Origin: a virus
IMG/VR virus record: IMGVR_UViG_3300047354_000512
Coordinates: 1 to 23,086 of that record
DNA: 23,086 nt
Direction: 5' to 3' (one strand)
Under the pieces are notes generated by a model, which saw nothing but the letters and a program-made list of their open reading frames with translations, had not been told where the DNA came from and did not search any database. Shown piece by piece: positions 1 through 23,086 of this stretch (within the stretch, counting starts at the first letter, position 1; each line of letters opens with the position of its first letter). The position numbers and the translations under genes are program-made.

Positions 1-3000
1 AGAACTCTCTGTTCTTCTGAAGTTGTTTTCTAGCATTAGCGTTATTAGCAGGAACGTCATTACTATAATGAATGTCGTCACCTAATACTGATACTGAATT
101 TGTTAATGCTTCAACAAATGTATGGTCATCTATAATTGCAGATTTACCAACATTAACTGTAATCTTAGTTTCATTTGCACCAATAACTTCAATCGGTGTT
201 CCAGCAGCTGGGTCAGAAGCTCTTGGATATCCTGTTCGTGATGCATTATTATCTCTGTCACATGTAAATACTAAGCCACCAGTTTTTAATAATACTTTTC
301 TACCAACTCCTAAACCGTGGCCTGATGTTAAAGCATTTGGTACGGCTGATACGAAGGTATGTACTTGTTGACCAGTTGGACCACCAACTCCTACATTCAT
401 TGTAATAGTGTTTGAAGTTACACTAGTAATTGGACATGGTTTATTATAGTAAGGGTGATGTGATTCAGGTACAGCATGATTTTGTACGCCAGAACCTGCA
501 TCACAACTAAATGTTATACCACCTGGTTTAAACCATATATGGTCTTTAGTGGTTAGTGCATGTTTACCAACAGTTGCTGTCATAATTCCTGTAGCAGGGT
601 CATAGTCAACAGCTGATGGTGTGAAATCTTTCTTAGTGCCGAGTGTGATAACTGATAACCCAGTTTCTGGGTCGTAAGTTGCAGCAGTAGGAGTAAACTG
701 TGTTCCTTTGTTTTCTAAGATTTCTAATATATTATCAAAGCTATCATCTAATCTTTGTGAAGCAAGATAAGAATCGCCATCAATTAATTCGTTTGTTTGG
801 TCTTTTAATCTTTTGTATGCAGCTACTGTTTCGTTGTTTTGATTTTCCATAACAGTTTTTGCAGTAGCCATATAATAAGCTCTACCTGCAGTTACTGCAT
901 TATAGTTTGTGTCAAACAACATATCGTTTTTAACAGCTGGAAGAATATAGTCTGAAACATCTCTTCTGCATGCTGCACTGTCGTATGCATAGAACTGACC
1001 GTTGTTTTCAATCCAGTCAATAAGTTCGTTAGTAATTAAATCTCTGTTATCTTGTATTAAGTTACGTGCTGCAGTTTGAGCAACTGAAGTATCTTGCCAA
1101 ATAATTGGGTTAATGTTTTCTTCGCCATACTCTAATACATTGAGTAATTCGCTGAATGAAGTATCAATACGGCCATTAACTTTTGGATTACCACTATCAA
1201 ATACCTCTTTTGTTCTATCTCTTAGATATTCAAGTGCGCCTTTTGTTTCTTCTAATTGTTCACCTGGTACAACATAACTGATAGGAGACCTATATGTAAT
1301 TCCACCAAGTCTTCCCCAATAGTTAGTATCGAGAGCAATGTCATAACCTGTTCCGTCAAGTACAATACCTGAATCTCTTAAACATTTTTCTGAATCATAC
1401 TCTTGGTAACCTAATCCACCGTTTGCTGTGTTGGATGTTAAGTAAACAACCATGTCGTCAATAATATCATCAGCTTGAGTATTAATAGTATCAGCAAAAG
1501 CTGTATTACCAATAATTGTTGCAGTAGTTGACTTAGGAGCAAAGAACTCTGTAGTACCTTTTGCTCTCATTGAGATGTCACCGAACTGAGTACCTGAGTT
1601 GTTCAGAGTCATCTGTCCACCATTCAATGCATAGAATGCACATCGTACGAAGATGGATAGAGAACCAATACCGTTAACACCAGCACCATCTCTAGCAACA
1701 TAACCTAAACCGTTTTGAGTACGAGGTGTGAAACCAAAACATAATACGTAAGTATATAGTGAGTCTGTGTCTAGTACTCTTCTGTCTGCAAGTACACAAC
1801 CACCACCTCTTCCAACTGCTCTGTTCGGGAAGTCATCAATACCAATTGATTCGATAACACCAACACCGCCTGACTCTGAAGTTACTGTGTCACCAACCGC
1901 GAATCCTTGGCCGTTCTTAAGGTTACGAACTCTAATTTTACGATAAGTAGCAATATCACCAGATACACCTTTCAGTGCGTCTTGTGCATCGTCCCAAGAT
2001 AAGTAACCGATAGCACCAGATGAGAATACAATCTCATCGTCCATTGCCCAAGAACCTGTAAGTCCAGTTGCTAATGTAAACTCTCTACCTAGGTCAGCAA
2101 GAGTACCTTTTGTGTTATAAGGATTTAAAGGTGGTTCAACATCTTGTCGTAAGAAGTTAGATAACTGAGTACTATCTCTTAAGTAAGGTGAACGTAATAG
2201 TTTAGCACCAGGTCGATATGCGATCGCAAATCCACCCTCTGGGAAATCAAAGTTATCAACTTGGAAGTTCTGATAACCGAAGCCTTGAACATAACAACCA
2301 GAACCAACTAAGATTCCGTTATTGTTTTCATATCCAGGAAGTAATTCGATAACAGTAGCATACTGACCAGCTGTTGAAGTACATGAACAATCATCAGGTA
2401 ACATGAGATTACCTTTTGTATAATATGTACCAGGACCAACTGATATATGAACTGCGTTGTTAATTGCGTTTCTGTTTAAGTCACCACCTGCTTTTTCTAA
2501 ACATAGTTCAAACGCTTTTTCTAATGTTTGTACAGGTTGTAGCATTGTGCCTGGATTTTTATCGTCACCAGATGCAGCGTCTACATTAACTTTTAAAGCT
2601 TGTGCTGTTTTCTTAGATACTTCATCGTAAAGTTGAGCAAAATTGATTTTTTCTGTTTCACCAGTTTTCTCATTTTTAATAGCAAAGAATGTTTCATCTG
2701 TAATTGGTGCTTCAAACTCTTTATTAATGTCCATGTCGAAGTCGACAAGGTTAGAGTTTGATATTGTACCACCGTCAAATACTGACCCTGACATCGTGCC
2801 ATTATCGAACGATGAATTATTTGAAGAAAGACCATCTGCAGATGAGCTTCTGATTGTCATATCGGTAGCTACAACATCTTGCATTGTACCTTGGAAATCA
2901 GTATTAGATATTGTACCATCTGTAAATGTAGAATCATCAATGGTTGAATTAGTCAGTACTACATTATTTCCAGTACCATCATTAAATTCAGATGAAGTAA

Positions 3001-3838
3001 TAATTGTGTTATTAACTGTACCATCGTTAAATTCAGAATTAGTAATGATTACAGCATTTGCAGTACCACCAAGAAGTGTTGTATCTGTAAATGTATTATT
3101 AGAACCAGTACCTTCTGAGAAATCAGAATTTGTAATTGTTACGTTATTAGCAGTACTATCAAATATATCACCACTTCCAAATGTGGAAGAAGTCATTGTA
3201 ATATTATTAGCTGTGCTATTACTTAATGCACCATCGTCGAATGTTGATTGAGTAATTGTTACGTTATTAGCAGTACTATCAGTGATTGTAGAATCATCAA
3301 TAGTTGAGTTAGTTAATGTTACATTATTTCCTGTACCATCATTAAACTCGGAATTTGTTATTACGACATTGTTTGCAGTACTATCATTTAGTTCTGAACT
3401 TGTAAGTACTACATTGTTACCAGTAGAATCTGTGATTGTGCCATCAGTAAACGAAGAGTTTGCAATTGCTAAATCTTCACCAGTTGAAGATACTAAAGAA
3501 CCATCAGTAAATGATGATGAAGTAATTGTAATGTTATTAGCGGTGGAATTAAAGATTTCAGTATCTCGGATTGTTCCTCTGAGAAAATTAGTATCTTCAA
3601 TATCTGAATTATCAATACGAACATTATCGAGAGTCGAGTCTCGCATTTGAACACCGGATATTGTACCGCCAGTGATTGTGATGCGGTCAAAAATCTCATA
3701 CTGAATAGCTTGAACCAGTTCTTTCCTAGTAATGTTACTCGTACCATCGTCACCTTGAACCAGGTTGACAATTACAAATAAATCCTCAGGCCTGGTATTA
3801 GCACCGGTAATAGGAGGTAATTCTGAAATTTTTGCCAT
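1..3838 (-). CDS. Giant tail fibre/virion structural protein with pentapeptide-type beta-helix (3' end outside window)
   Basis: One uninterrupted minus-strand frame runs from the ATG at 3838 to the window edge (about 1279 codons, no stop), so the C-terminus is missing. The start is supported by AAGGGA at 3848-3853, 9 nt upstream. Residues 1-50 (MAKISELPPITG..., PEDLFVIVN) resemble attachment regions of marine phage fibres. Residues about 55-369 are a run of five-residue units with small residues (S/G/V) and hydrophobic residues (F/I/L/A) two apart, suggesting a quadrilateral beta-helix shaft. A second PITDETFFAIKN segment follows, then residues about 417-560 (VNVDAASGDDKNPG, VGPGTYY) typical of pectin-lyase-like beta-helices. 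The end of the visible part holds two copies of a roughly 65-residue beta repeat. Its likely role is a long host-recognition or decoration fibre. The exact receptor or enzymatic activity is unknown; no catalytic motif was identified in the visible part. Confidence 0.85.
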   Translation of the reverse strand, partial: MAKISELPPITGANTRPEDLFVIVNLVQGDDGTSNITRKELVQAIQYEIFDRITITGGTISGVQMRDSTLDNVRIDNSDIEDTNFLRGTIRDTEIFNSTANNITITSSSFTDGSLVSSTGEDLAIANSSFTDGTITDSTGNNVVLTSSELNDSTANNVVITNSEFNDGTGNNVTLTNSTIDDSTITDSTANNVTITQSTFDDGALSNSTANNITMTSSTFGSGDIFDSTANNVTITNSDFSEGTGSNNTFTDTTLLGGTANAVIITNSEFNDGTVNNTIITSSEFNDGTGNNVVLTNSTIDDSTFTDGTISNTDFQGTMQDVVATDMTIRSSSADGLSSNNSSFDNGTMSGSVFDGGTISNSNLVDFDMDINKEFEAPITDETFFAIKNEKTGETEKINFAQLYDEVSKKTAQALKVNVDAASGDDKNPGTMLQPVQTLEKAFELCLEKAGGDLNRNAINNAVHISVGPGTYYTKGNLMLPDDCSCTSTAGQYATVIELLPGYENNNGILVGSGCYVQGFGYQNFQVDNFDFPEGGFAIAYRPGAKLLRSPYLRDSTQLSNFLRQDVEPPLNPYNTKGTLADLGREFTLATGLTGSWAMDDEIVFSSGAIGYLSWDDAQDALKGVSGDIATYRKIRVRNLKNGQGFAVGDTVTSESGGVGVIESIGIDDFPNRAVGRGGGCVLADRRVLDTDSLYTYVLCFGFTPRTQNGLGYVARDGAGVNGIGSLSIFVRCAFYALNGGQMTLNNSGTQFGDISMRAKGTTEFFAPKSTTATIIGNTAFADTINTQADDIIDDMVVYLTSNTANGGLGYQEYDSEKCLRDSGIVLDGTGYDIALDTNYWGRLGGITYRSPISYVVPGEQLEETKGALEYLRDRTKEVFDSGNPKVNGRIDTSFSELLNVLEYGEENINPIIWQDTSVAQTAARNLIQDNRDLITNELIDWIENNGQFYAYDSAACRRDVSDYILPAVKNDMLFDTNYNAVTAGRAYYMATAKTVMENQNNETVAAYKRLKDQTNELIDGDSYLASQRLDDSFDNILEILENKGTQFTPTAATYDPETGLSVITLGTKKDFTPSAVDYDPATGIMTATVGKHALTTKDHIWFKPGGITFSCDAGSGVQNHAVPESHHPYYNKPCPITSVTSNTITMNVGVGGPTGQQVHTFVSAVPNALTSGHGLGVGRKVLLKTGGLVFTCDRDNNASRTGYPRASDPAAGTPIEVIGANETKITVNVGKSAIIDDHTFVEALTNSVSVLGDDIHYSNDVPANNANARKQLQKNREF
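148..565 (-). repeat. Two tandem ~65-residue beta repeats near the visible C-terminus of the giant fibre
   Basis: Unit A (about 565-385) and unit B (about 335-148) share a skeleton: an H- or G-rich lead-in, then FKPGGITFSCD or LKTGGLVFTCD, a Pro/His/Asp-rich loop, PITSV or PIEVI, and a closing strand TITMNVG or KITVNVG. Each unit is followed by an HTFV segment (HTFVSA, HTFVEA). Such HTF/GGxxFxCD repeats are familiar from marine phage structural proteins, and I read them as bead-like beta domains. Function is not known. Confidence 0.7.
2220..2227. other. HIP1 octamer GCGATCGC (first copy)
   Basis: Perfect GCGATCGC palindrome inside the giant fibre gene. This octamer is highly iterated in many cyanobacterial genomes and is rare by chance in AT-rich DNA. 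Confidence 0.5.
2732..3676 (-). repeat. About 60 degenerate pentapeptide repeats within the giant fibre
   Basis: Translated residues 55-369 of the fibre fall into a five-residue register with few slips. Typical units are NSEFN, DGTGN, NVTLT, NSTID, DSTAN. Position 2 is small or beta-branched and position 4 is F/I/L/A, matching the spacing of the pentapeptide-repeat (Rfr) fold. Units group into 15- and 20-residue super-repeats (DSTANNVTITNS...). The DNA is repetitive too but diverged. Confidence 0.75.
3132..3281 (-). repeat. Exact 30-bp direct repeat, copies 120 bp apart
   Basis: The same 30 bases occur at 3132-3161 and 3252-3281, in the same codon frame, each encoding the DSTANNVTIT part of the pentapeptide array. 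This is the longest exact repeat I noticed in the array and suggests recent duplication or recombination of a 40-residue block. Confidence 0.85.
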
Positions 3839-12242: not shown

Positions 12243-14504
12243 TCAAGATGAAAAAGAAACCTTTTGCCTAGGCCATGCTCTTCCTGTTACTGGTCTTCTG
12301 CCATTTGTTGTTTGTTCTGAACCACCAGCAATATATTTACCGTTGCCCATTCTAATTCCCCAAGGGATATGTACTCTTAATGCTGGTGTTCCGTATAGCT
12401 CTGTTAGTTCTGCACCACCGTTCTGATAATTATTATCTTTAATTCTGTTTACTTCAGTCGATGCATATAATTTGCTCGATGATAAATCTTGAGGTTGATA
12501 TGCACAAGTTGCACTAAGAAGATAAGAACCTGAAACATTTTGGAAATCAATTCCGTCATCTACATCTGTAGATAAGTCTGTATCTCCAATTAAATTTTCT
12601 TTTGCAGCGTTAACCATAATATCTTTTAATTTTGCAATGGATGGATATACTCCTCGCTCAGTAAAGTAATGCTCTAAAAATACTGTTGCGCATCCAGCTG
12701 CGAGAGGTGCTGCACAACTTGTTCCACTGAAATATCCCCATTTGCCATCTGAATAAGTACCAGTCGGATAGCTTGTCCAAGTATATGCACCATAAGCAGC
12801 AAAATCAATCTGAGGTCCACGACTACTATAATCGTCCATTAATCTGTTTACATCATCTTGTTGACATGCAGCAATTGTAAACTGATTATCTCCACCTGTA
12901 TTTTCTGCTCTCAAAGGATATACAGTTGTTTGAGAACCCTGTGTTGAAGATGTTAAAGTATTTCTATCATTTGTAATTGTATTGGTAACATAAGTTGAAC
13001 CTGCATCAACCGTAATTGATGTATTAAATCTTGGGTCTGTTGGGCTTACACCAATATGAGAATTATTACCTGCACTTGTAAATGCATAAATTCCATTATA
13101 ACTATTATATTGACTCATTACTGTATCAAATGCAGAATACCTTGTTTGGTCGGGTATGGAAATCATCCACTTGTCAGTACTATCTGCAGGGTCTTCGATA
13201 ACTCTTGGAATAAGTAAATTATCTACAAATGGTCTATAGTCATCGTACCAATTATTAGTAACATTAGCTCTAATTTCACCAGTCATTCCACCGTGATAAT
13301 CACAAATATAATCATAAACATCTCCGGCTTCTGGCATAGTTACTGTAACTGTAGATGTTCCTTGACCACTTACTCCTGCAACATTAGTTCCGCTTTTTCT
13401 GATATATAATGGATGTCCACCAGATGCTTGATTATCAATAACTACAGTATCACCTGGTTTTACAGTAATAACTCTATTACTAACTTGTGTATCACCTGCA
13501 ACTTTAGCATAAATTCTATCATCACCAGTTACTTCATAAGCACTTGAGCCTGAAGCAGTCATTGTAATATTCCAAGTTTTTGGTTTATAACTATTATTAC
13601 GAGTGATTGTTTCAGATGAACCATCTGCTTGATATGCTACAATCTGACTGATATCATTTATTTTATAGAATCTTTCGTGGTCAACTCCTACGAATCCCCA
13701 TGCTCCTGTTACTACAGTTGCATTACGAACTCCTGTGACAGGATTGACCGGTTTATTAATGTGCCAAGTTAATGCTGTATAGTAAGCAGTTGTTACACCA
13801 TCAGCTAAATACATAACTCTTAATGAACTTTTTTTACCCCAACCACAATACTTACCACCTGCTGCACTGAGTACACCAATTGCATGAGATGAGAACCAAT
13901 TTGTATTATTATTAGTTACTTGATTGTTTCTTGCTGAAGTCATTGAACTGGAAGTATCGCTCCACTCCATAGGAACAAATTTAGAATTATTACTATCCCA
14001 TTCTTCAAAATCAACATGGTCTTCGTGACCTGCATTACCTGAAGCTGGACTACCTGCTTCAATAGCAACAATATCTACATATTCACCAAGATAATTGCTT
14101 TTAACAGTATCATCAAATTGATATTCAGTACCTTGAAAATAACCAAATGGCTGTGTACCATCTGCTGTTTTAAACTCGCTTGTAAAAAACATATTTAAAC
14201 CAGTATTTTCTGCACCATTACCAGTAGGATTAAATTTAGTTCTGTATGTTACACTGCTTGTTTCGTATCTTGGAGTAGTAGATGGATATGATACTAATTC
14301 TTGTACATCTCTTTCTGGTCCACATTCAATTACTTTAGAACTTGCTCTTAATGTTTCTGCTTCTTCGTCAGTCAACATCATCGCAATCATACCATCCCAT
14401 AAATCAAAGTTACAATGAACTTGCATTCCAGCTGCTTCATTAGCTAGAAAATCTGCTTCATCTGTCCCTGGCTGAAATATAACGTTATGAATACGTTTGC
14501 TCAT
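12243..14504 (-). CDS. Subtilisin-like (S8) protease with inserted cupredoxin domain, virion-associated
   Basis: A 753-residue protein. S8 landmarks are: VDIVAIEAG (residues 143-151, catalytic Asp position occupied by Glu149), NWFSSHAIGVLSAAGG (His207), FTSAGNNSH (oxyanion Asn480), DDYSSRGPQIDFAAYG (558-572) and YFSGTSCAAPLAAG (Ser596). Between the GAWGFVG strand (268-274) and the LLIPRVIE region (430-437) sits an extra beta domain, about residues 305-416: ITVKPGDTVVIDNQ, GGHPLYI (His364) and YDYICDYHGGMTGEI (Cys401, His404, Met407). This is a complete type-1 copper ligand set with amicyanin-like CxxHxxM spacing. No signal peptide or membrane segment is visible. The gene follows the fibre gene by 5 nt with no promoter of its own, so the two are probably co-expressed and the protease is carried on the particle. 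The substrate is unknown; a host surface protein or a virion protein are both possible. Confidence 0.85.
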   Translation of the reverse strand: MSKRIHNVIFQPGTDEADFLANEAAGMQVHCNFDLWDGMIAMMLTDEEAETLRASSKVIECGPERDVQELVSYPSTTPRYETSSVTYRTKFNPTGNGAENTGLNMFFTSEFKTADGTQPFGYFQGTEYQFDDTVKSNYLGEYVDIVAIEAGSPASGNAGHEDHVDFEEWDSNNSKFVPMEWSDTSSSMTSARNNQVTNNNTNWFSSHAIGVLSAAGGKYCGWGKKSSLRVMYLADGVTTAYYTALTWHINKPVNPVTGVRNATVVTGAWGFVGVDHERFYKINDISQIVAYQADGSSETITRNNSYKPKTWNITMTASGSSAYEVTGDDRIYAKVAGDTQVSNRVITVKPGDTVVIDNQASGGHPLYIRKSGTNVAGVSGQGTSTVTVTMPEAGDVYDYICDYHGGMTGEIRANVTNNWYDDYRPFVDNLLIPRVIEDPADSTDKWMISIPDQTRYSAFDTVMSQYNSYNGIYAFTSAGNNSHIGVSPTDPRFNTSITVDAGSTYVTNTITNDRNTLTSSTQGSQTTVYPLRAENTGGDNQFTIAACQQDDVNRLMDDYSSRGPQIDFAAYGAYTWTSYPTGTYSDGKWGYFSGTSCAAPLAAGCATVFLEHYFTERGVYPSIAKLKDIMVNAAKENLIGDTDLSTDVDDGIDFQNVSGSYLLSATCAYQPQDLSSSKLYASTEVNRIKDNNYQNGGAELTELYGTPALRVHIPWGIRMGNGKYIAGGSEQTTNGRRPVTGRAWPRQKVSFSS
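13257..13592 (-). other. Cupredoxin (amicyanin-like) domain inserted in the S8 protease
   Basis: This segment codes for about residues 305-416 of the protease. It has the usual strands ITVKPGDTVVI and TVTVTMPEAGDVYDYICDYHG, and His364, Cys401, His404 and Met407 in the order and spacing of a type-1 copper site. C-x2-H-x2-M is the amicyanin spacing and is two residues shorter than plastocyanin. Removing it would join the two halves of the subtilase core, so it is an insertion rather than a terminal fusion. Confidence 0.75.
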
Positions 14505-16112: not shown

Positions 16113-16943
16113 CTAGTATGATATATCGTAATCGTTCTCTAAATACTTTTCAAGTAATCTAAACATATCCGTAGATACTGTATGAGCAACATTATCATTT
16201 AAGAAAATTGTATTACCGTAATCTACTAATGTACTTGCCGACCCGTAAGCCGAACCACTTAATAAATTACCATTATATCCTTGTGATTTTGCAAATGCAA
16301 GTGCACTGTTTGGCGCACTTAGGAATGTTTGTCCTACAAAGTTTCCACCAGTGTATGGAACCGTTGTATCAAGTCTTCCGTTTAAATGTAAAATCTTTCT
16401 TTGTGGTAATGATGTAACTAATGTATCATATCCATCATTTGAATATGCATTACCTGTTTGTTCGTGATTAGATGGATAATAGAATTGACCACCTCTGTAT
16501 TGGTCATTTGTTGTCTGTGATATAATACATGCAATTGTATCAACACCAGTATCTTCAATTTCTACTGCTGCTCTCAATGCAAGTCCACCACCATTACTTA
16601 TTCCTATAATACGAATCTTAGTTTCATCAACATTTTGGAATAGTTTTAAATTGGTTATGAGTTCTTCGAGCATCTCAATATCAGGTCCATTACTACCTTC
16701 GTTAGAAATATTCCAACTGTTAGCGTAACCTTGTACACCAACTAATATATGTCCTTGTAATTCATTTCCAAACTGTGTTACCATTGCAGCACCATTACCA
16801 CCATTACCATGTAATAATATTGCTGTTGGATAAGGTGCACTTCCTGTTGAAGGCATTCCAATTGTTACTTCATAATCGTGGAATCCTTGACTCCAATTTT
16901 TAGTAATTGTAAGGTCAGATGATTCGCTTAAGTTTGCACCACC
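16113..16943 (-). other. Esterase domain (LpqC/PHB depolymerase-like) of the gp7-like protein
   Basis: This segment codes for residues about 770-1045. The triad Ser885-Asp961-His1023 and the oxyanion HGNGG loop are all present, so the enzyme looks active. Enzymes of this class cut ester bonds such as acetyl or feruloyl groups on polysaccharides or polyester chains. In a baseplate the natural guess is deacetylation or opening of host surface glycans, which is inference. Confidence 0.75.
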
Positions 16944-19250
16944 TGTACCACCAGGTGTATGGTCTGCTGTAACATAAGTACTGTCTACTGAGAAGTTCGT
17001 AACTGATGCTCTTAAATCTGCAATGTCTGCAACATCAAGCGGTGAGCCTGAGCCTTCGTCGTTGAATAACCTAATGAATCTTTGTTTAGTTTTTCCTGTA
17101 TTACCATATTTGTAAATAAAGTCACCAAACATTTTAGAACCAGCAAGGTGAACATTTTCTTTTAGTAATTTTTCGTATTGACTTTTATCTAGAGTTGATT
17201 TAATTTGATATGAATACTCTTGGTAAAAATCACTGTCTTGTATTCTCATACCTGAATTATAGTAAGTATCAATTGCAGCACTGTTTGCAGCTTGAGTTAC
17301 GTAACCATTAATATGAGATGAATAATCTTTCCAATAACCTTTATTTTTTCCTTGCTCTTGTGCTTCAATTGTTCCACTTGCTAAAACTATACTCGTGTCA
17401 ATAGGGTCTCGTAATGTACCTGTGTCACCATTAACATAAGAGAATCCAGAATTATTAATTGCAACTTTATTAATATAACCTGTTTCAAAATCTGCACGAG
17501 CATTAATAATTGCATTATCACCATAGAAGCGACTTGAGTAATCTGTACTAGCACCAGCAATAGTAAATACATCATTGTTAGAACGAATAATGTTGTTTAT
17601 ACCAGTAAATCCATTCCAAGAGTTTGGTAGTATATAAAGTAATCCTTGTACACTATCTATTCTGAGTATACTAGCAGTAGCTAATGTAGTTTCTTCAGTA
17701 ATACTTTCGTTAACATTAAATAATGCAGCATCTTGTATATTAGATAATCTTATTACTTGACCGCGTTTTTCAAATTTAGTAATTAAATCATCTTTTGCTC
17801 TTGCAAAAATTTCAAAGCCATAATTAGAACCAGGGTTAACATTTTCAAATAAATCTAATTTACCAATTTCAATACCTGATGTATCAAATGCATCTGCAAG
17901 AACAGTAGAAAGTGTAACTGGAGAAGCAGTACCTGACATAGGAGTTATTGCTCCATAATCAGCTGCATCAAGCGCAATACCTAAATAAGGTTGAATCGGG
18001 TCTGTAATGAGATTAACTGTTTCTGTATCTGAAATAACAGCATAAACATCCGTATTAGCATCAGGTGGATTACCCTCTGGGTATAAAACAGCTGGTAATT
18101 GAACGGGTGATGAATTGTTAAACGGTGATACACCAATTTGTATGCCATTTGCTTTTAAATCAATATTAGGATTTCTGTCTACAGTTAAAATTGGTCTTGC
18201 ATGGTCAAATGTACCGGTTGTCATTTTAACACCGATATTATAATCACTTTGACCTAAAACATAACCTTCGTTTCCATCTGCATCTTCAAGCCTTTCGTAT
18301 AATTCAAATTGTACTTCGTTTGAAGGGTCTGTATTAATTGCTTGATTGGAAACTAATAAACTAGTATTTGCAACTGAATAACCGTAACCGCCATTAATAT
18401 AATTATATGTAGCAACTGCATTGACCGCGTTGGTTACATCTGTAACTATACCTTCACCACCGTCACCTTCAAAGCTGTCGGGTTGTATTTTAACTGAGTC
18501 ACCAATTTTCTTATTTGCTAATCTTGGTAATGTATCGTCAACAATAAATTCACTAAGAGAACCACCAACCTCACCAAAATCTATAGATTCTTTAGAAATG
18601 TTAGTATAAATTCTGTCGTATTTTAAGAAAGTACCTTGGACATTATCAATGTAAATAATAGGAGTATATCTACCATTAATTAACATTGAATTAATTTTAG
18701 CTACAGAAGCTTTTGCTTGACTAACACTACCTGTTATAACACGAGAAATTAAATCTGCATAAGTGTATTGAATACTTGTTGTATCACTTAAAAATAAATT
18801 ATCGTTGGGAAGCATCTGTAGGAAATTACCTTCTTTCCATTCAGAGTTTGAAGCTTTTAACATTCTATTAGAAGGATAAACTATTTCAATATCATATTCT
18901 TTATAGAATGTTGCAAAGAATAACTCAATACCAGCCTTAGTACCTTTTCTGCGATAAAGGTCTAATATATTTTTAACAAGGAATGGTACAATAGATTCTT
19001 TAAGTTCAAGGTCAACTAAATATTTGTTCTTGTAAAATATAAGTAAAGATTTAATTGTTGTATCAACATCTTTATATTCAAAGAAACGCCTTGAAACATA
19101 AGTAGATTGATTTGTTGCTGTTTCCATCCACTTATAATAGTCGCGAGCTAGCTGAACAAGTTCTGGTCCATCTTCACGATAGATTGCAGGAAATTGCTGA
19201 TTGATAAAAAAGCTTATACTTTTTTCTATCTGCGAATAATCTTCAGCCAT
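16113..19250 (-). CDS. 7: gp7-like baseplate wedge protein fused to a C-terminal esterase-type alpha/beta hydrolase
   Basis: A 1045-residue protein. The N-terminal 1-130 (FPAIYREDGPELVQLARDYYKW, then LYRRKGTKAGIELFFATFYKEYDIEI) matches the C-terminal half of T4 gp7, which has a similar arrangement ending FYSTKGIEASYKFLFKVLYNEEVEIEIE. The later QIKSTLDKSQYEKLLKENVHLAGSKMFGDF (about 682-711) matches the gp7 segment that follows. Gp7 starts wedge assembly and binds gp6, gp8 and gp10. From about residue 785 a complete hydrolase domain follows: LLHGNGGNG (oxyanion loop, His814), SWNIS and GPDIEML, VDETKIRIIGISNGGG (nucleophile Ser885), LNGRLDTTVP (Asp961) and DNVAHTV (His1023). This order and the WN/D/GxSNGG signature are those of PHB depolymerase/feruloyl esterase-like enzymes. 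AGGA at 19261-19264 supports the start. The gene has gp6 20 nt upstream. Confidence 0.83.
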   Translation of the reverse strand: MAEDYSQIEKSISFFINQQFPAIYREDGPELVQLARDYYKWMETATNQSTYVSRRFFEYKDVDTTIKSLLIFYKNKYLVDLELKESIVPFLVKNILDLYRRKGTKAGIELFFATFYKEYDIEIVYPSNRMLKASNSEWKEGNFLQMLPNDNLFLSDTTSIQYTYADLISRVITGSVSQAKASVAKINSMLINGRYTPIIYIDNVQGTFLKYDRIYTNISKESIDFGEVGGSLSEFIVDDTLPRLANKKIGDSVKIQPDSFEGDGGEGIVTDVTNAVNAVATYNYINGGYGYSVANTSLLVSNQAINTDPSNEVQFELYERLEDADGNEGYVLGQSDYNIGVKMTTGTFDHARPILTVDRNPNIDLKANGIQIGVSPFNNSSPVQLPAVLYPEGNPPDANTDVYAVISDTETVNLITDPIQPYLGIALDAADYGAITPMSGTASPVTLSTVLADAFDTSGIEIGKLDLFENVNPGSNYGFEIFARAKDDLITKFEKRGQVIRLSNIQDAALFNVNESITEETTLATASILRIDSVQGLLYILPNSWNGFTGINNIIRSNNDVFTIAGASTDYSSRFYGDNAIINARADFETGYINKVAINNSGFSYVNGDTGTLRDPIDTSIVLASGTIEAQEQGKNKGYWKDYSSHINGYVTQAANSAAIDTYYNSGMRIQDSDFYQEYSYQIKSTLDKSQYEKLLKENVHLAGSKMFGDFIYKYGNTGKTKQRFIRLFNDEGSGSPLDVADIADLRASVTNFSVDSTYVTADHTPGGTGGANLSESSDLTITKNWSQGFHDYEVTIGMPSTGSAPYPTAILLHGNGGNGAAMVTQFGNELQGHILVGVQGYANSWNISNEGSNGPDIEMLEELITNLKLFQNVDETKIRIIGISNGGGLALRAAVEIEDTGVDTIACIISQTTNDQYRGGQFYYPSNHEQTGNAYSNDGYDTLVTSLPQRKILHLNGRLDTTVPYTGGNFVGQTFLSAPNSALAFAKSQGYNGNLLSGSAYGSASTLVDYGNTIFLNDNVAHTVSTDMFRLLEKYLENDYDISY

Positions 19251-19270: not shown

Positions 19271-21145
19271 TTAATAACTATTACTATTTGTTGAACTTGT
19301 TAGTGTGCCAATAGCTGCTGACGATGTAGTTGTTCCAGCAACTGGTTTTTCATCAAGTATCATATTAACTTGTACATCTTCATCTCTAATTATAAACACA
19401 CGCCCTTGAGCAGCTTTAATAGTATTTTCTTTTGGTCTTACCATAATTTTAACTGAGCTTCCGTCGAATGCTTCAACAAGAACTGTATTTAAAGTTATTA
19501 AACCTTTTGTATAATCTATTGTTCCTACTTTAGGTTTAAATACTGATGGATTTGTTATGTCATCTACAATAAACATAAGATTACCTAAACCATCATCTTG
19601 TAAATAAACACAAGTACCATCTATATCAAATGGTGTACTCTTAACAGCAGGTTTATATTCTTTAAATCCTGTTGCTTCTCTAAATGGATAAGGTTTAACT
19701 AATTCTGTTTCAAATCTAAATATCGGTGTTTCTCTAATATTAATTTGTGGGCTCCAATCAATGATTGGCATAAGAGTTAATCCAGTACTTAATACTGCTG
19801 TATCGACACTGTCAAGTTGTGCAGCAAGTTTACTGCCTCTTAATTTTGTATTAAAATCTTCTAGAGTTGTAGATGAATAATTACTTATTTGGCTTCTTAC
19901 TAATGCTTCAATTTCGTCTTTTGATTTTTCTGTACTCTTATTAGTATATACAATATCAGCAATAACATCTGCATATATAAATTTGGTCTGTACAAATATT
20001 GGTTCAATACCTAATGGACTCTTTTCTGCTAAATAATTAATATAAGTATTTGCAAGTGTTGAACTAATTAATGTTGTTTCTGCATCTAAATAAACCGATA
20101 TAGCAACTCGACCAAATTGAGGTGGGTCTAATTCTTCACCACCATAAGCACTTACTGCTGTAATATCTGGGAATGCTTGTTGTAATAATACTTCGTAATC
20201 TTTTGTTGTTACTGCACGTTCTTGTACTGCTAATGACTTAGGAGCAAAATATCTAATAGATTCCATACTCTCACGCTCTAAACCACCTGCTGCAGCTGTA
20301 AGTGTTGTTATTGCAATAGTAGCTCCTTCAATAAAACTTGCACTAAATGCTGAAGCACCATTTGCTAATTCACCTGAACAAATTCTATATCTTACTCTTA
20401 CATCCTCAAACTCTTCTGGCTGTAAACCAAATTCGTTTTTACCAAAATAAACTGCATATCTGTTATCTAAATAAGGCTCTAAATAAAATACTTTATCGTC
20501 AGGTTTAACACCATATATTGTATTAGCACGAGTAAATACATTACGGTCTTCCGTTTCTTCTGCATCAACAAATACCACAACAGAGTCTGTATCAACTTCA
20601 TCGTTTGTTAATTGAACACGAAGTACTCCGTCACCATCAACAATAAATCCTTCTCTTTGGAATGATGCTAACATTGACCCTTCAAATATGTCAATGCTGT
20701 CAGCAGTATAAACGCTAGGTGCAGTTCGTCTTGCAACATATGTTTGATTAGTTACAAATGTAAATAACTCACCTTGATAGTTTGCTGTAAACGTAGAATA
20801 TTGTGGAATAACAACTGTACTATCTGTTGCGTTTTCATCTGTAATAGTAACACGAACTGTTGCTTTAGCAGATTTACGCGAACGAGGAATATAGTTTAAT
20901 TCTTTTGCATGAGAAACGATTGAGTTCTTTAGGACGGCCGAGTCTAAAAACATCTCATTCATTGTCATGTTTGTATAGAAATTATTTTGGAAAGTATTAA
21001 ATGATAGTACATCTAGTAATGCACTCATGTTACTACCTTCAAAGTTATAATCTTTAAATTGAGTCTGCGTTTGCAGATATGTTTTTAACTGGTTTTTTAT
21101 CGAATCAAAATCGAGTTCTGTAATTGGGGTTTTTGGATTGGCCAT
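19271..21145 (-). CDS. 6: Baseplate wedge subunit gp6
   Basis: A 624-residue protein, close to the 660 of T4 gp6. The N-terminal region (FDSIKNQLKTYLQTQTQFKDYNFEGSNMSALLDVLSFNTFQNNFYTNMTMNEMFLDSAVLKNSI, about residues 13-75) is the diagnostic gp6 helical start, followed by RSRKSAKATVRVTI. The middle matches the baseplate J-like family shared by gp6 and phage P2 gpJ: ERAVTTKDYEVLLQQAFPDI and VYLDAETTLISSTL. Gp6 forms the ring that joins six wedges around the hub and changes conformation on contraction. AAAGGA at 21155-21160 lies 9 nt upstream of the ATG. The start is one base past the gp25 stop, so the two are coupled; gp25 and gp6 contact each other in the particle. Confidence 0.93.
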   Translation of the reverse strand: MANPKTPITELDFDSIKNQLKTYLQTQTQFKDYNFEGSNMSALLDVLSFNTFQNNFYTNMTMNEMFLDSAVLKNSIVSHAKELNYIPRSRKSAKATVRVTITDENATDSTVVIPQYSTFTANYQGELFTFVTNQTYVARRTAPSVYTADSIDIFEGSMLASFQREGFIVDGDGVLRVQLTNDEVDTDSVVVFVDAEETEDRNVFTRANTIYGVKPDDKVFYLEPYLDNRYAVYFGKNEFGLQPEEFEDVRVRYRICSGELANGASAFSASFIEGATIAITTLTAAAGGLERESMESIRYFAPKSLAVQERAVTTKDYEVLLQQAFPDITAVSAYGGEELDPPQFGRVAISVYLDAETTLISSTLANTYINYLAEKSPLGIEPIFVQTKFIYADVIADIVYTNKSTEKSKDEIEALVRSQISNYSSTTLEDFNTKLRGSKLAAQLDSVDTAVLSTGLTLMPIIDWSPQINIRETPIFRFETELVKPYPFREATGFKEYKPAVKSTPFDIDGTCVYLQDDGLGNLMFIVDDITNPSVFKPKVGTIDYTKGLITLNTVLVEAFDGSSVKIMVRPKENTIKAAQGRVFIIRDEDVQVNMILDEKPVAGTTTSSAAIGTLTSSTNSNSY

Positions 21146-21146
21146 C

Positions 21147-21563
21147 TTATCTTATCCTTTCTAAAATTAAATCAAGAGTAATTGGTTTGTCAACATTCCT
21201 GATATAAAACTGTATGAATACATTTACTGTGTTATCGTCATAACTACTCGAAGCAGTAACGTTAATTAATTCTGCTCGAGATTCAAACGTGTTTATTGTA
21301 TCTCTACATCTTGTTTCAATAACTTTTAAAACACCAGGCGTAATGTTTTCAAATAATAATCCTTTAATACCACCACCAACATAGGGTTGCATTAATCTTT
21401 CACCTGGGTCTGTTAAAATTAAATTTTTAATACTTTGTTTTACTGCGTCTTCGTCTTTTAATAAAGCAATATCTTTTGAAATAGGACTAATGCGCAAATC
21501 CTTATGGAAATCGCTATATAAATTCGGCTTCTTAGTAATCGGCGTTTTTATATTAATTGTCAT
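21147..21563 (-). CDS. 25: Baseplate wedge subunit gp25
   Basis: A 138-residue protein, near the 132 of T4 gp25. It has the GPW/gp25 layout: YSDFHKDLRISPISKDIALLKDEDAVKQSIKNLILTDPGERLMQPYVGGGI, where DPGER and P-GGG are the conserved family motif, then a C-terminal strand domain ending TLDLILERIR. Gp25 anchors the sheath to the wedge and starts sheath polymerisation. Its ATG overlaps the stop of the preceding gene (ATGA), and the ribosome site is weak, both consistent with coupled translation from upstream. Confidence 0.93.
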   Translation of the reverse strand: MTINIKTPITKKPNLYSDFHKDLRISPISKDIALLKDEDAVKQSIKNLILTDPGERLMQPYVGGGIKGLLFENITPGVLKVIETRCRDTINTFESRAELINVTASSSYDDNTVNVFIQFYIRNVDKPITLDLILERIR

Positions 21564-23086
21564 CTTGCTATTTCTCTAGTATCTAAATGAATATGTTTAT
21601 CGTAAATTACAACACCTAAAAATCCAGATTTCTGCGCGTTTTTAACAAACAATTCAATCCAGTCTTCAGTAAAGTTTGCTCCTATTCCTCTTTCTGCTTC
21701 TGGAACATCGTTAAAAGCAGATTCAAATGCAGGGTCCCTTTTAATATCTATAACAAGTCCACTAAGGTGAGGATTATCATTTTCCTTTTTTAGTATTTCT
21801 TGATTATATTTTTGGCTTACCCAACCATTTGTTATAACCATTGTATTACCATAAATTGATTGTAATCTTTTAAGATATACTTTAATATCTAAATCAATAT
21901 GTGTATATGCAGGAAGTCCAACACCTTTTTCTTCATCAAATACATCACCTTCAAATTTAAATATTTCGCCGCCTTTCATCACAGCCATACACTTAGGTAA
22001 ATCTCTATAATCTTGTGCAGTAATTGGTTCTACATCAACACGTTCGTAATCAGTAACTGATTGAGGAACATTATTCGCATTTCCTTCATTCCATAACCTA
22101 TTTAGGCTATTTATGTCGCCTTGCCTTCTTTCTTTTGAAAATCTTATTGCACCATTACGAATAGCAGTAGATGTGTTTTGATTACCAATAGCTTGTAATC
22201 TTTTAATAACTCTTTGATATCTATTTCCATAATCATCTAATGGATTCTTAATTTCATTAATTAGTGCTTCAACATTACTTGCAAGTGCACAAAAACGTGC
22301 AACTAAAAATTGCATAGTTGCTAAATCCATATTTTCAAATAAACTAAAAGCATAATCCATAAATCCTTTTAATTTATCTTTAACTTTTTTCTCTTGCTCT
22401 TCTGTTAACTCATTACACATACGCTCTTTTTGAGTCATTATATACTTTGTATGATGTTTGTCAATATCAGTAACTAAATCTCCTATTTGGTCAAGGATAT
22501 CAAAATTATCAATTGCAGCTCTTATTTTTTCATATATTTTAATAACAGAGTCGATAATCTTTTTCTGTATCTCTTCCATTAATTTTTCAACAACTTCTTG
22601 TTGTATTATTTCAAGTGGAGTTCTACCTTCGTATCTGCCTGTTTTTGCAAATATTAATATTGTATTATATACTGCATTGATATCATTAATAAGCCCATCG
22701 ACTTCACCAATTAAATCATAGAATGCATCTATCTGATTAAATAGATTATTCATGCTATTACAGAAACCACCTAATATACTTTCAAAGATATCACCAGCGT
22801 AATATTTTTCTAAGTCACCGAGTAATTTATCAGGTACTTGGTTTTGTAATCCATTAGGCGAATAATTAAATGACTCCATAAAGTCAGCCATTTCAAGATT
22901 GGAAATATTACCTCTATTAAATCTATTATTTAACGATGGATAATCGTTTGTATTATTAAGTCTAAATGGTCCGTTAATATAAACAAGGCTTTCTCCATAA
23001 GAATCACCAAACTTATTAACCATGTTTTGTATTGGATTACTGTTAGTTTCTGCTATAATATTATCAGCAAGTTCTTTTGCAAAAAC
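21560..23086 (-). CDS. Baseplate/virion protein with C-terminal M15-like zinc peptidase motif (5' end outside window)
   Basis: The reading frame stays open from the ATG at 23023 to the window edge (21 more codons, VFAKELADNIIAETNSNPIQ...), and no Shine-Dalgarno sequence precedes 23023, so I take the real start to lie upstream and treat the gene as 5'-partial. Residues are numbered from 23023. Residues about 1-330 are largely helical with coiled-coil-like stretches (QQEVVEKLMEEIQKKIIDSV) and resemble structural adaptor regions. The C-terminal ~110 residues carry NPHLSGLVID (His419, Asp426) and DKHIHLDTRE (His479, Asp481), matching the HxxGxxxD and HxD motifs of M15-type L,D/D,D-peptidases. These would cut peptidoglycan stem peptides and give the baseplate a wall-degrading function like that of T4 gp5 lysozyme, which I do not see here. 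The stop overlaps gp25 by ATGA. Confidence 0.7.
   Translation of the reverse strand, partial: VFAKELADNIIAETNSNPIQNMVNKFGDSYGESLVYINGPFRLNNTNDYPSLNNRFNRGNISNLEMADFMESFNYSPNGLQNQVPDKLLGDLEKYYAGDIFESILGGFCNSMNNLFNQIDAFYDLIGEVDGLINDINAVYNTILIFAKTGRYEGRTPLEIIQQEVVEKLMEEIQKKIIDSVIKIYEKIRAAIDNFDILDQIGDLVTDIDKHHTKYIMTQKERMCNELTEEQEKKVKDKLKGFMDYAFSLFENMDLATMQFLVARFCALASNVEALINEIKNPLDDYGNRYQRVIKRLQAIGNQNTSTAIRNGAIRFSKERRQGDINSLNRLWNEGNANNVPQSVTDYERVDVEPITAQDYRDLPKCMAVMKGGEIFKFEGDVFDEEKGVGLPAYTHIDLDIKVYLKRLQSIYGNTMVITNGWVSQKYNQEILKKENDNPHLSGLVIDIKRDPAFESAFNDVPEAERGIGANFTEDWIELFVKNAQKSGFLGVVIYDKHIHLDTREIAR

Follow-up and report, generated by a model that had tools for sequence, protein, structure and literature searches.

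The lysozyme of T4 gp5 is the textbook case of a contractile tail opening the cell wall. According to the accessible text of one report, T4 gp5 comprises an OB fold (residues 1-129), the lysozyme (174-339), and a beta-helix (389-575) (PMC7650644). In phage P1, as far as the accessible part of that paper goes, gp5 is without a lysozyme and the SLT domain of the tape measure protein has been proposed as the supplier of the activity (PMC9024508), and the peptidase domain of the Anabaena phage A-1(L) hub is described, in the part of the paper seen, as lysing host cells in vitro (PMC10966104). The gene between gp5 and gp25 in Sinorhizobium phage phiM12, gp110, is annotated 'contains pfam08291, Peptidase M15 domain', an annotation from which the family and its genomic place are already known. 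The literature searched, which was accessible in part and outside of which most subscription papers fall, describes no T4-type hub in which gp5 is without a lysozyme and a separate M15 protein serves instead.

Here, we analysed a 23,086-base virus fragment (IMG/VR record IMGVR_UViG_3300047354_000512, positions 1 to 23,086; hereafter, the window). We consider it likely that one of its genes encodes a baseplate or hub protein of a T4-like marine phage, in which a helical N-terminal part is joined to an M15-type zinc peptidase, and that this protein does the job of the T4 gp5 lysozyme; its virion location, docking, catalysis, bond, and timing are what we infer in this reading.

Gene order and distribution of the family

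The locus and its completed copy comprise the following features:

21560..23086 (-): candidate M15 hub-peptidase gene, 3' part (508 of 545 codons; 5' end beyond the window)
22040..23086 (-): window-visible part of the N-terminal helical region (helices in a modest-confidence model; phrog_25247)
21563..22039 (-): predicted C-terminal M15 (LAS-type) peptidase domain, ~159 residues (PF08291; domain model; best match 1LBU)
21746-21769 (-): HLSGLVID, the HxxGxxxD motif, read in ORF 21560..23086
21581-21595 (-): HIHLD, which holds HLD, the HxD motif, read in the same ORF
21767..21769 (-): His477 (545-aa numbering), predicted zinc ligand 1, conserved with the other two ligands in 33/36 representatives
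21746..21748 (-): Asp484, predicted zinc ligand 2 (from conservation)
21587..21589 (-): His537, predicted zinc ligand 3 (from conservation)
21581..21583 (-): Asp539 of the HxD motif (from conservation)
21560..21563 (-): ATGA, 4-nt overlap of the M15 stop and the gp25 start (read from the sequence)
21147..21563 (-): gp25 baseplate wedge subunit (PF04965, E 9.8e-12; phrog_261, E 4.9e-41)
19271..21145 (-): gp6 baseplate wedge subunit (PF21379, E 5.2e-17; phrog_219, E 1.8e-139)
L002:9664-11301: full-length M15 protein, 545 aa, on a near-identical contig

The ORF is open at its 5' end at the window edge, leaving 508 aa visible, and contig L002, which is 99.84% identical to the window across 9,952 nt, runs on beyond the window's end. 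The gene order along L002 is gp48, gp53, an 85-aa ORF, a gp27-like protein, gp5, the M15 protein, gp25, and gp6. Across all family loci read, gp25 directly follows the M15 protein downstream among the mapped genes, and gp5 directly precedes it in every locus whose contig extends that far. The original prediction had described a long helical virion protein coupled to gp25. The coupling is borne out by the ATGA through which the M15 stop overlaps the start of gp25 (a PF04965 protein), making translational coupling of the two genes probable. The helical part stood as well, given that the full-length model, of modest confidence (mean pLDDT 69.1), shows a long helical N-terminal part; that the M15 protein would be a virion protein is suggested by its position and homology. 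The profile phrog_25247, named 'peptidase', matches residues 46-218 of the ORF, and the N-terminal helical region is probably the part that docks to the baseplate.

Among named phages, full-length relatives came from 7 records of four Sinorhizobium phages. A tblastn search of named phages with the ORF matched only two Dulem virus records, over 11% of the query, and the link to phiM12 was found via the neighbouring gp25, gp6, and gp5. Scans of IMG/VR with the protein and with its alignment yielded 17 and 54 loci, respectively; loci L063-L066 hold only small M15 proteins and were placed outside the family. An independent gp6-anchored scan returned 80 loci, comprising 16 with the M15 protein, 35 with gp5 and gp25 but without it, and 29 without it that were left out of the comparison, as their contigs yielded no gp5 or no gp25. 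Photosynthesis genes, a clue to the host, were absent from 8/8 records searched.

Elsewhere in the window, a tail-fibre-like protein (12243-14504, (-)) has a subtilase region (Peptidase_S8, E 9.9e-12) and, with a match that narrowly misses the cut-off, a cupredoxin-like region (E 7.3e-4). A wedge-like protein of 1045 aa (16113-19250, (-)) carries an alpha/beta-hydrolase region at its C-terminus, where phrog_2576 matches residues 768-1026 and a weak match is PHA-depolymerase-like, and the ORFs at the same place in contigs L016 and L013 measure 775 and 764 aa, respectively. A 1279-aa, 3'-open protein at 2-3838 (-) contains pentapeptide repeats (E 4.8e-14), along with a weak eCIS_core match (E 0.041).

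Predicted fold and zinc site of the C-terminal domain

Against Peptidase_M15_3 (PF08291), the window copy scored 15.8 bits as an ORF and 19.1 bits as a domain (E 0.0015), under the curated Pfam cut-off of 23.2. The profile search against M15 families that had been proposed as a check favoured the prediction across the family even though this copy lies below the cut-off: at E<=1, PF08291 was matched by 34/34 homologous domains scanned (best E 1.1e-18), 12/34 also matched Peptidase_M15_2, and the curated PF08291 cut-off was exceeded by matches in 5/12 related records. The phiM12 member clears it (E 8.1e-19, 68.2 bits) and matches PF05951 with an E of 2.1e-09. When built into a profile, the 34 domains match Sonic hedgehog and 1LBU and, more weakly, the endolysin LysECD7. 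Over window 21563-22039 (-), this family profile fits the hedgehog signalling domains of animals and the M15 enzymes of bacteria about equally well. When the whole ORF was searched as a single sequence against the PDB, the matches were weak only and all in the helical part.

Foldseek returned nothing significant for the full-length model, and a separate model was therefore made of the domain, with a mean pLDDT of 92.0 and a pTM of 0.88. The top Foldseek match of this model was the zinc DD-peptidase 1LBU, which we take to be from S. albus G (E 0.065, probability 0.90), and the same structure gave the best Z in VIA-align (Z 7.7, rmsd 3.1, 107 aligned), in which rows 1-43 were all M15/LAS enzymes or hedgehog domains. 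The structural Z-scores are middling, yet the VIA-align list is uniform and in agreement with the sequence profiles, and the C-terminal domain is predicted from its model to adopt the LAS fold. A non-peptidase fold, which could have told against the original prediction, did not emerge, as M15/LAS-type enzymes and hedgehog domains head the solved structures matched.

The HxxGxxxD and HxD motifs on the protein preceding gp25 both lie within 21560-21790. The pair HxxGxxxD-(20-70)-HxD has a single occurrence across the window's frames and arises by chance in 0.115% of cases when the M15 protein is shuffled and in 2.1% when the window's proteome is, the latter figure making conservation a more telling test than chance statistics. 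Conservation was counted over 36 representatives (<95% identity), as the 75-row M15N alignment includes re-fetched copies of the same contigs, and the H/D/H triad His477/Asp484/His537 was kept in 33/36, confirming the predicted M15-like motif pair as real. The exceptions were L119 and L084, with Tyr and Ser as the first two ligands, and L017, which is frameshifted before the domain:

L119:8003-9577: M15 protein with Tyr/Ser ligands
L084:4460-6079: M15 protein with Tyr/Ser ligands

The frameshift in L017:5117-6732, either an assembly error or real, splits the M15 gene and places the peptidase domain in another frame. Within the HIH of the second motif, the first His is often Phe among family members. 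The acid three positions before the third zinc ligand, an Asp in 1LBU that we take to be catalytic, is not conserved in the family, and the window has Lys there; therefore, assignment to the S. albus G-type DD-carboxypeptidase subgroup (M15A) was withheld. Likewise, because no conserved acid was found as a general base, the cut bond is left unnamed. One idea weighed was that members losing the zinc site of the M15 domain might gain an enzyme on gp5. L084, whose gp5 carries a lambda-lysozyme-like domain, fits this idea, whereas L119 does not, as its gp5 shows none and no other muralytic domain of the families searched occurs on that gp5 or in its 77 kb record. Retention of the protein in these two members, despite the broken zinc site, points to a probable structural role of the helical part itself.

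The gp5 spike and predicted wall-cutting genes

The window's clade comprises 22 tree rows (support 98/94) in a midpoint-rooted tree, a rooting for which no direction of change is claimed. The gp5 protein was tested for 18/22 clade rows, with the window's row represented via L002 and with partial proteins for L030 and L034, and none of the 18 had a muralytic Pfam match. In L002, gp5 consists of an OB fold and a beta-helix without a lysozyme; across the clade, OB and beta-helix matches recur, though weakly, and because the beta-helix matches start near residue 188, there is no space for a T4-type lysozyme. The original prediction would have been weakened by a gp5-type lysozyme in the same genome; the window's genome is a 23 kb fragment, and within its clade such a lysozyme is missing from the L002 gp5 and from all 18 tested. 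The PHROG names matched by the clade gp5s read 'baseplate hub subunit and tail lysozyme', an automated label that would mislead for this clade if our reading is right.

Outside the clade, the M15 protein was found together with a gp5 carrying a lambda-lysozyme-like domain (phiM12, L081, L084, and L127; matches to 1AM7), SLT (L086 and L087), or SleB-like Hydrolase_2 (L057 and L085), and the gp5 of L058 and L061 and the partial gp5 of L142 showed no muralytic domain. Since deeper relatives often pair it with a glycan-cutting gp5 domain, the M15 protein did not arise simply as a lysozyme substitute. A local scan of ORFs with the lambda-type-lysozyme profile recovered L081, L084, L127, phiM12, and, weakly, L094; the search with this profile (A6) returned nothing in 10/10 records, a result of little weight because none of them is known to contain the domain.

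M15-type domains also occur on gp5 itself. The gp5 of Ochrobactrum phage OC contains OB, Peptidase_M15_3 (E 5.7e-13), and Phage_lysozyme2, in this order, and a 1231-aa gp5-like ORF (L132:3676-7371) matches OB, lysozyme2, and M15 models, by which it is a second predicted gp5-M15 fusion. At its C-terminus, the gp5 OB protein of Methylophilales phage Melnitz (L026:4616-5656) resembles VanY (M15B) with an E of 1.1e-4, a match below cut-off of which no mention was found in the accessible part of the Melnitz paper. Among 46 hub ORFs without the M15 protein, taken from 30/35 loci having gp5 and gp25, Pfam matches at E<=0.001 were to Phage_lysozyme2 (2), CHAP (2), VanY (2), GH19 (2), M15_3 (1), and Hydrolase_2 (1). 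As the fusions and the hubs without the M15 protein carry varied enzyme domains, hub enzymes look exchangeable at the level of domain matches.

A stand-alone GH24 lysozyme (155 and ~184 aa) adjoins ORFs that are spanin-like by our own reading in each of the two largest relative contigs, which measure 156 and 137 kb and have M15 proteins that are ~44-48% identical. In view of these separate lysozyme and spanin-like genes, the M15 protein is probably not the endolysin, and its gene is located in the baseplate operon rather than in a lysis cassette. Both contigs also hold a stand-alone SleB-like hydrolase, and no muralytic protein other than these stand-alone ones was recognised in them. In the 156 kb contig, this cell wall hydrolase (L156:1330-1878) has a hydrophobic N-terminus and lies next to a ligase-like gene, among non-tail genes. 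Phage_lysozyme2 was absent in 12/12 records searched, SLT and M23 in 8/8, and CHAP and NLPC_P60 in 9/9, many of these records being fragments, and three tape-measure-like ORFs scanned gave no muralytic match.

Proposed role and comparison with known systems

Gene order, motif conservation, profile membership, predicted fold, and the absence of a recognised muralytic domain on the clade gp5 are the observations behind a hub peptidase. The suggestion that the protein may supply the peptidoglycan-cutting function usually provided by the gp5 lysozyme is thus supported, with an M15-like fold predicted and clade gp5s without a lysozyme. The operon and the gp5 fusions argue that the M15 protein would be virion-associated. 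Its helical N-terminal part would probably dock beside the gp27-gp5 hub and gp25; the gp5 needle would pierce the outer membrane, the M15 domain at the tail tip would then cut peptide stems or crosslinks of the peptidoglycan, and the cut peptidoglycan would let the tube pass. The A-1(L) hub peptidase domain (PMC10966104) and the lysozyme-free gp5 of P1 (PMC9024508) serve as precedents for this mechanism. Because the spike gp5 is without the sugar-cutting enzyme of T4, the breach in the wall during DNA injection is probably the work of the M15 protein. If true, an uncultured marine branch of T4-like phages opens the wall through another chemistry and with a protein that is not part of the spike, which would help explain infection by phages with a lysozyme-free gp5; the C-terminal domain is a small candidate zinc enzyme that is open to testing. 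We regard as evenly balanced the broader proposal that the hub of this clade lost a glycan-cutting domain and breaches the wall only via peptide bonds with a separate docked M15 peptidase, and that, generally, the T4-like hub enzyme is an exchangeable module (lysozyme, lambda-type lysozyme, SLT, SleB-like, GH19, CHAP, VanY, or M15) placed mid-gp5, at the gp5 C-terminus, or on a neighbouring baseplate protein.

Several points speak against a hub peptidase, namely the lack of a conserved general base, the two zinc ligands missing from L084 and L119, the SleB-like hydrolase in relatives, the window copy below the Pfam cut-off, and the middling Z. A mainly structural baseplate subunit, with a domain that is non-catalytic or merely wall-binding like hedgehog domains, would agree with the missing general base, with the two members that lost zinc ligands yet keep the protein, and with hedgehog domains being matched as well as enzymes by profile and fold. 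Hedgehog domains retain the zinc site and are not known to be peptidases. We judge this explanation unlikely, considering that the triad is retained in 33/36 representatives and that the phiM12 member matches the peptidase families strongly (PF08291, E 8.1e-19; PF05951, E 2.1e-09). A phage endolysin or maturation protease acting inside the infected cell appears highly improbable: although M15 enzymes are common as phage endolysins, with named endolysins among the matches, this gene sits in the baseplate operon and encodes a helical region of ~390 residues, and the two largest relative contigs have a separate GH24 lysozyme adjoining spanin-like genes. As for maturation, we know of no role of M15 enzymes in processing virion proteins.

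It is also quite unlikely that another virion enzyme (tape measure protein, tail fibre, or SleB-like hydrolase) makes the wall hole while the M15 protein only assists. The three tape-measure-like ORFs were without a muralytic domain, SLT/M23 and CHAP/NLPC_P60 were absent from the 8/8 and 9/9 records, many of them fragments, and the SleB-like gene of the 156 kb contig, with its hydrophobic N-terminus, lies among non-tail genes. What speaks for such a division of labour is the SleB-like protein in the two largest relative contigs, the co-occurrence of M15 and a glycan-cutting gp5 domain in several deeper relatives, and the lysozyme-free gp5 of P1, for which the accessible text proposes the tape measure SLT domain instead (PMC9024508).

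Of the known systems set against the hub-peptidase reading, 1LBU is the best structural match and shares the HxxxxxxD plus downstream His zinc site, but it is a cellular enzyme, and its acid three positions before the last zinc His is not conserved in the phage family. Hub gp15 of Anabaena phage A-1(L) is a tail-hub protein with a peptidase domain (PMC10966104), which is, however, fused to the hub barrel along with lysozyme and endoglucanase domains; the likeness is drawn with no peptidase family named in the accessible text. The gp5 of Ochrobactrum phage vB_OspM_OC offers an M15_3 domain at a T4-like hub, fused into gp5 with Phage_lysozyme2, whereas the window's clade has a separate protein before gp25. 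The gp110 'peptidase' of phiM12 (also in phiM7, phiM19, and phiN3; phrog_25247) shares the place between gp5 and gp25, the two-part architecture, and the zinc triad, and aligns with the L002 protein over most of its length (21% identity, E 1e-11). Unlike the window's copy, it clears the PF08291 cut-off, and the phiM12 gp5 has a C-terminal lambda-lysozyme-like domain that the gp5 of the window's clade is without. With the T4 gp5 tail lysozyme, the protein shares a proposed role in local wall opening, and the OB fold and beta-helix of T4 gp5 are also found in the clade gp5; in T4, however, the lysozyme is within gp5, whereas in the window's clade the enzyme would stand apart from gp5, have a different fold, and cut peptide rather than glycan.
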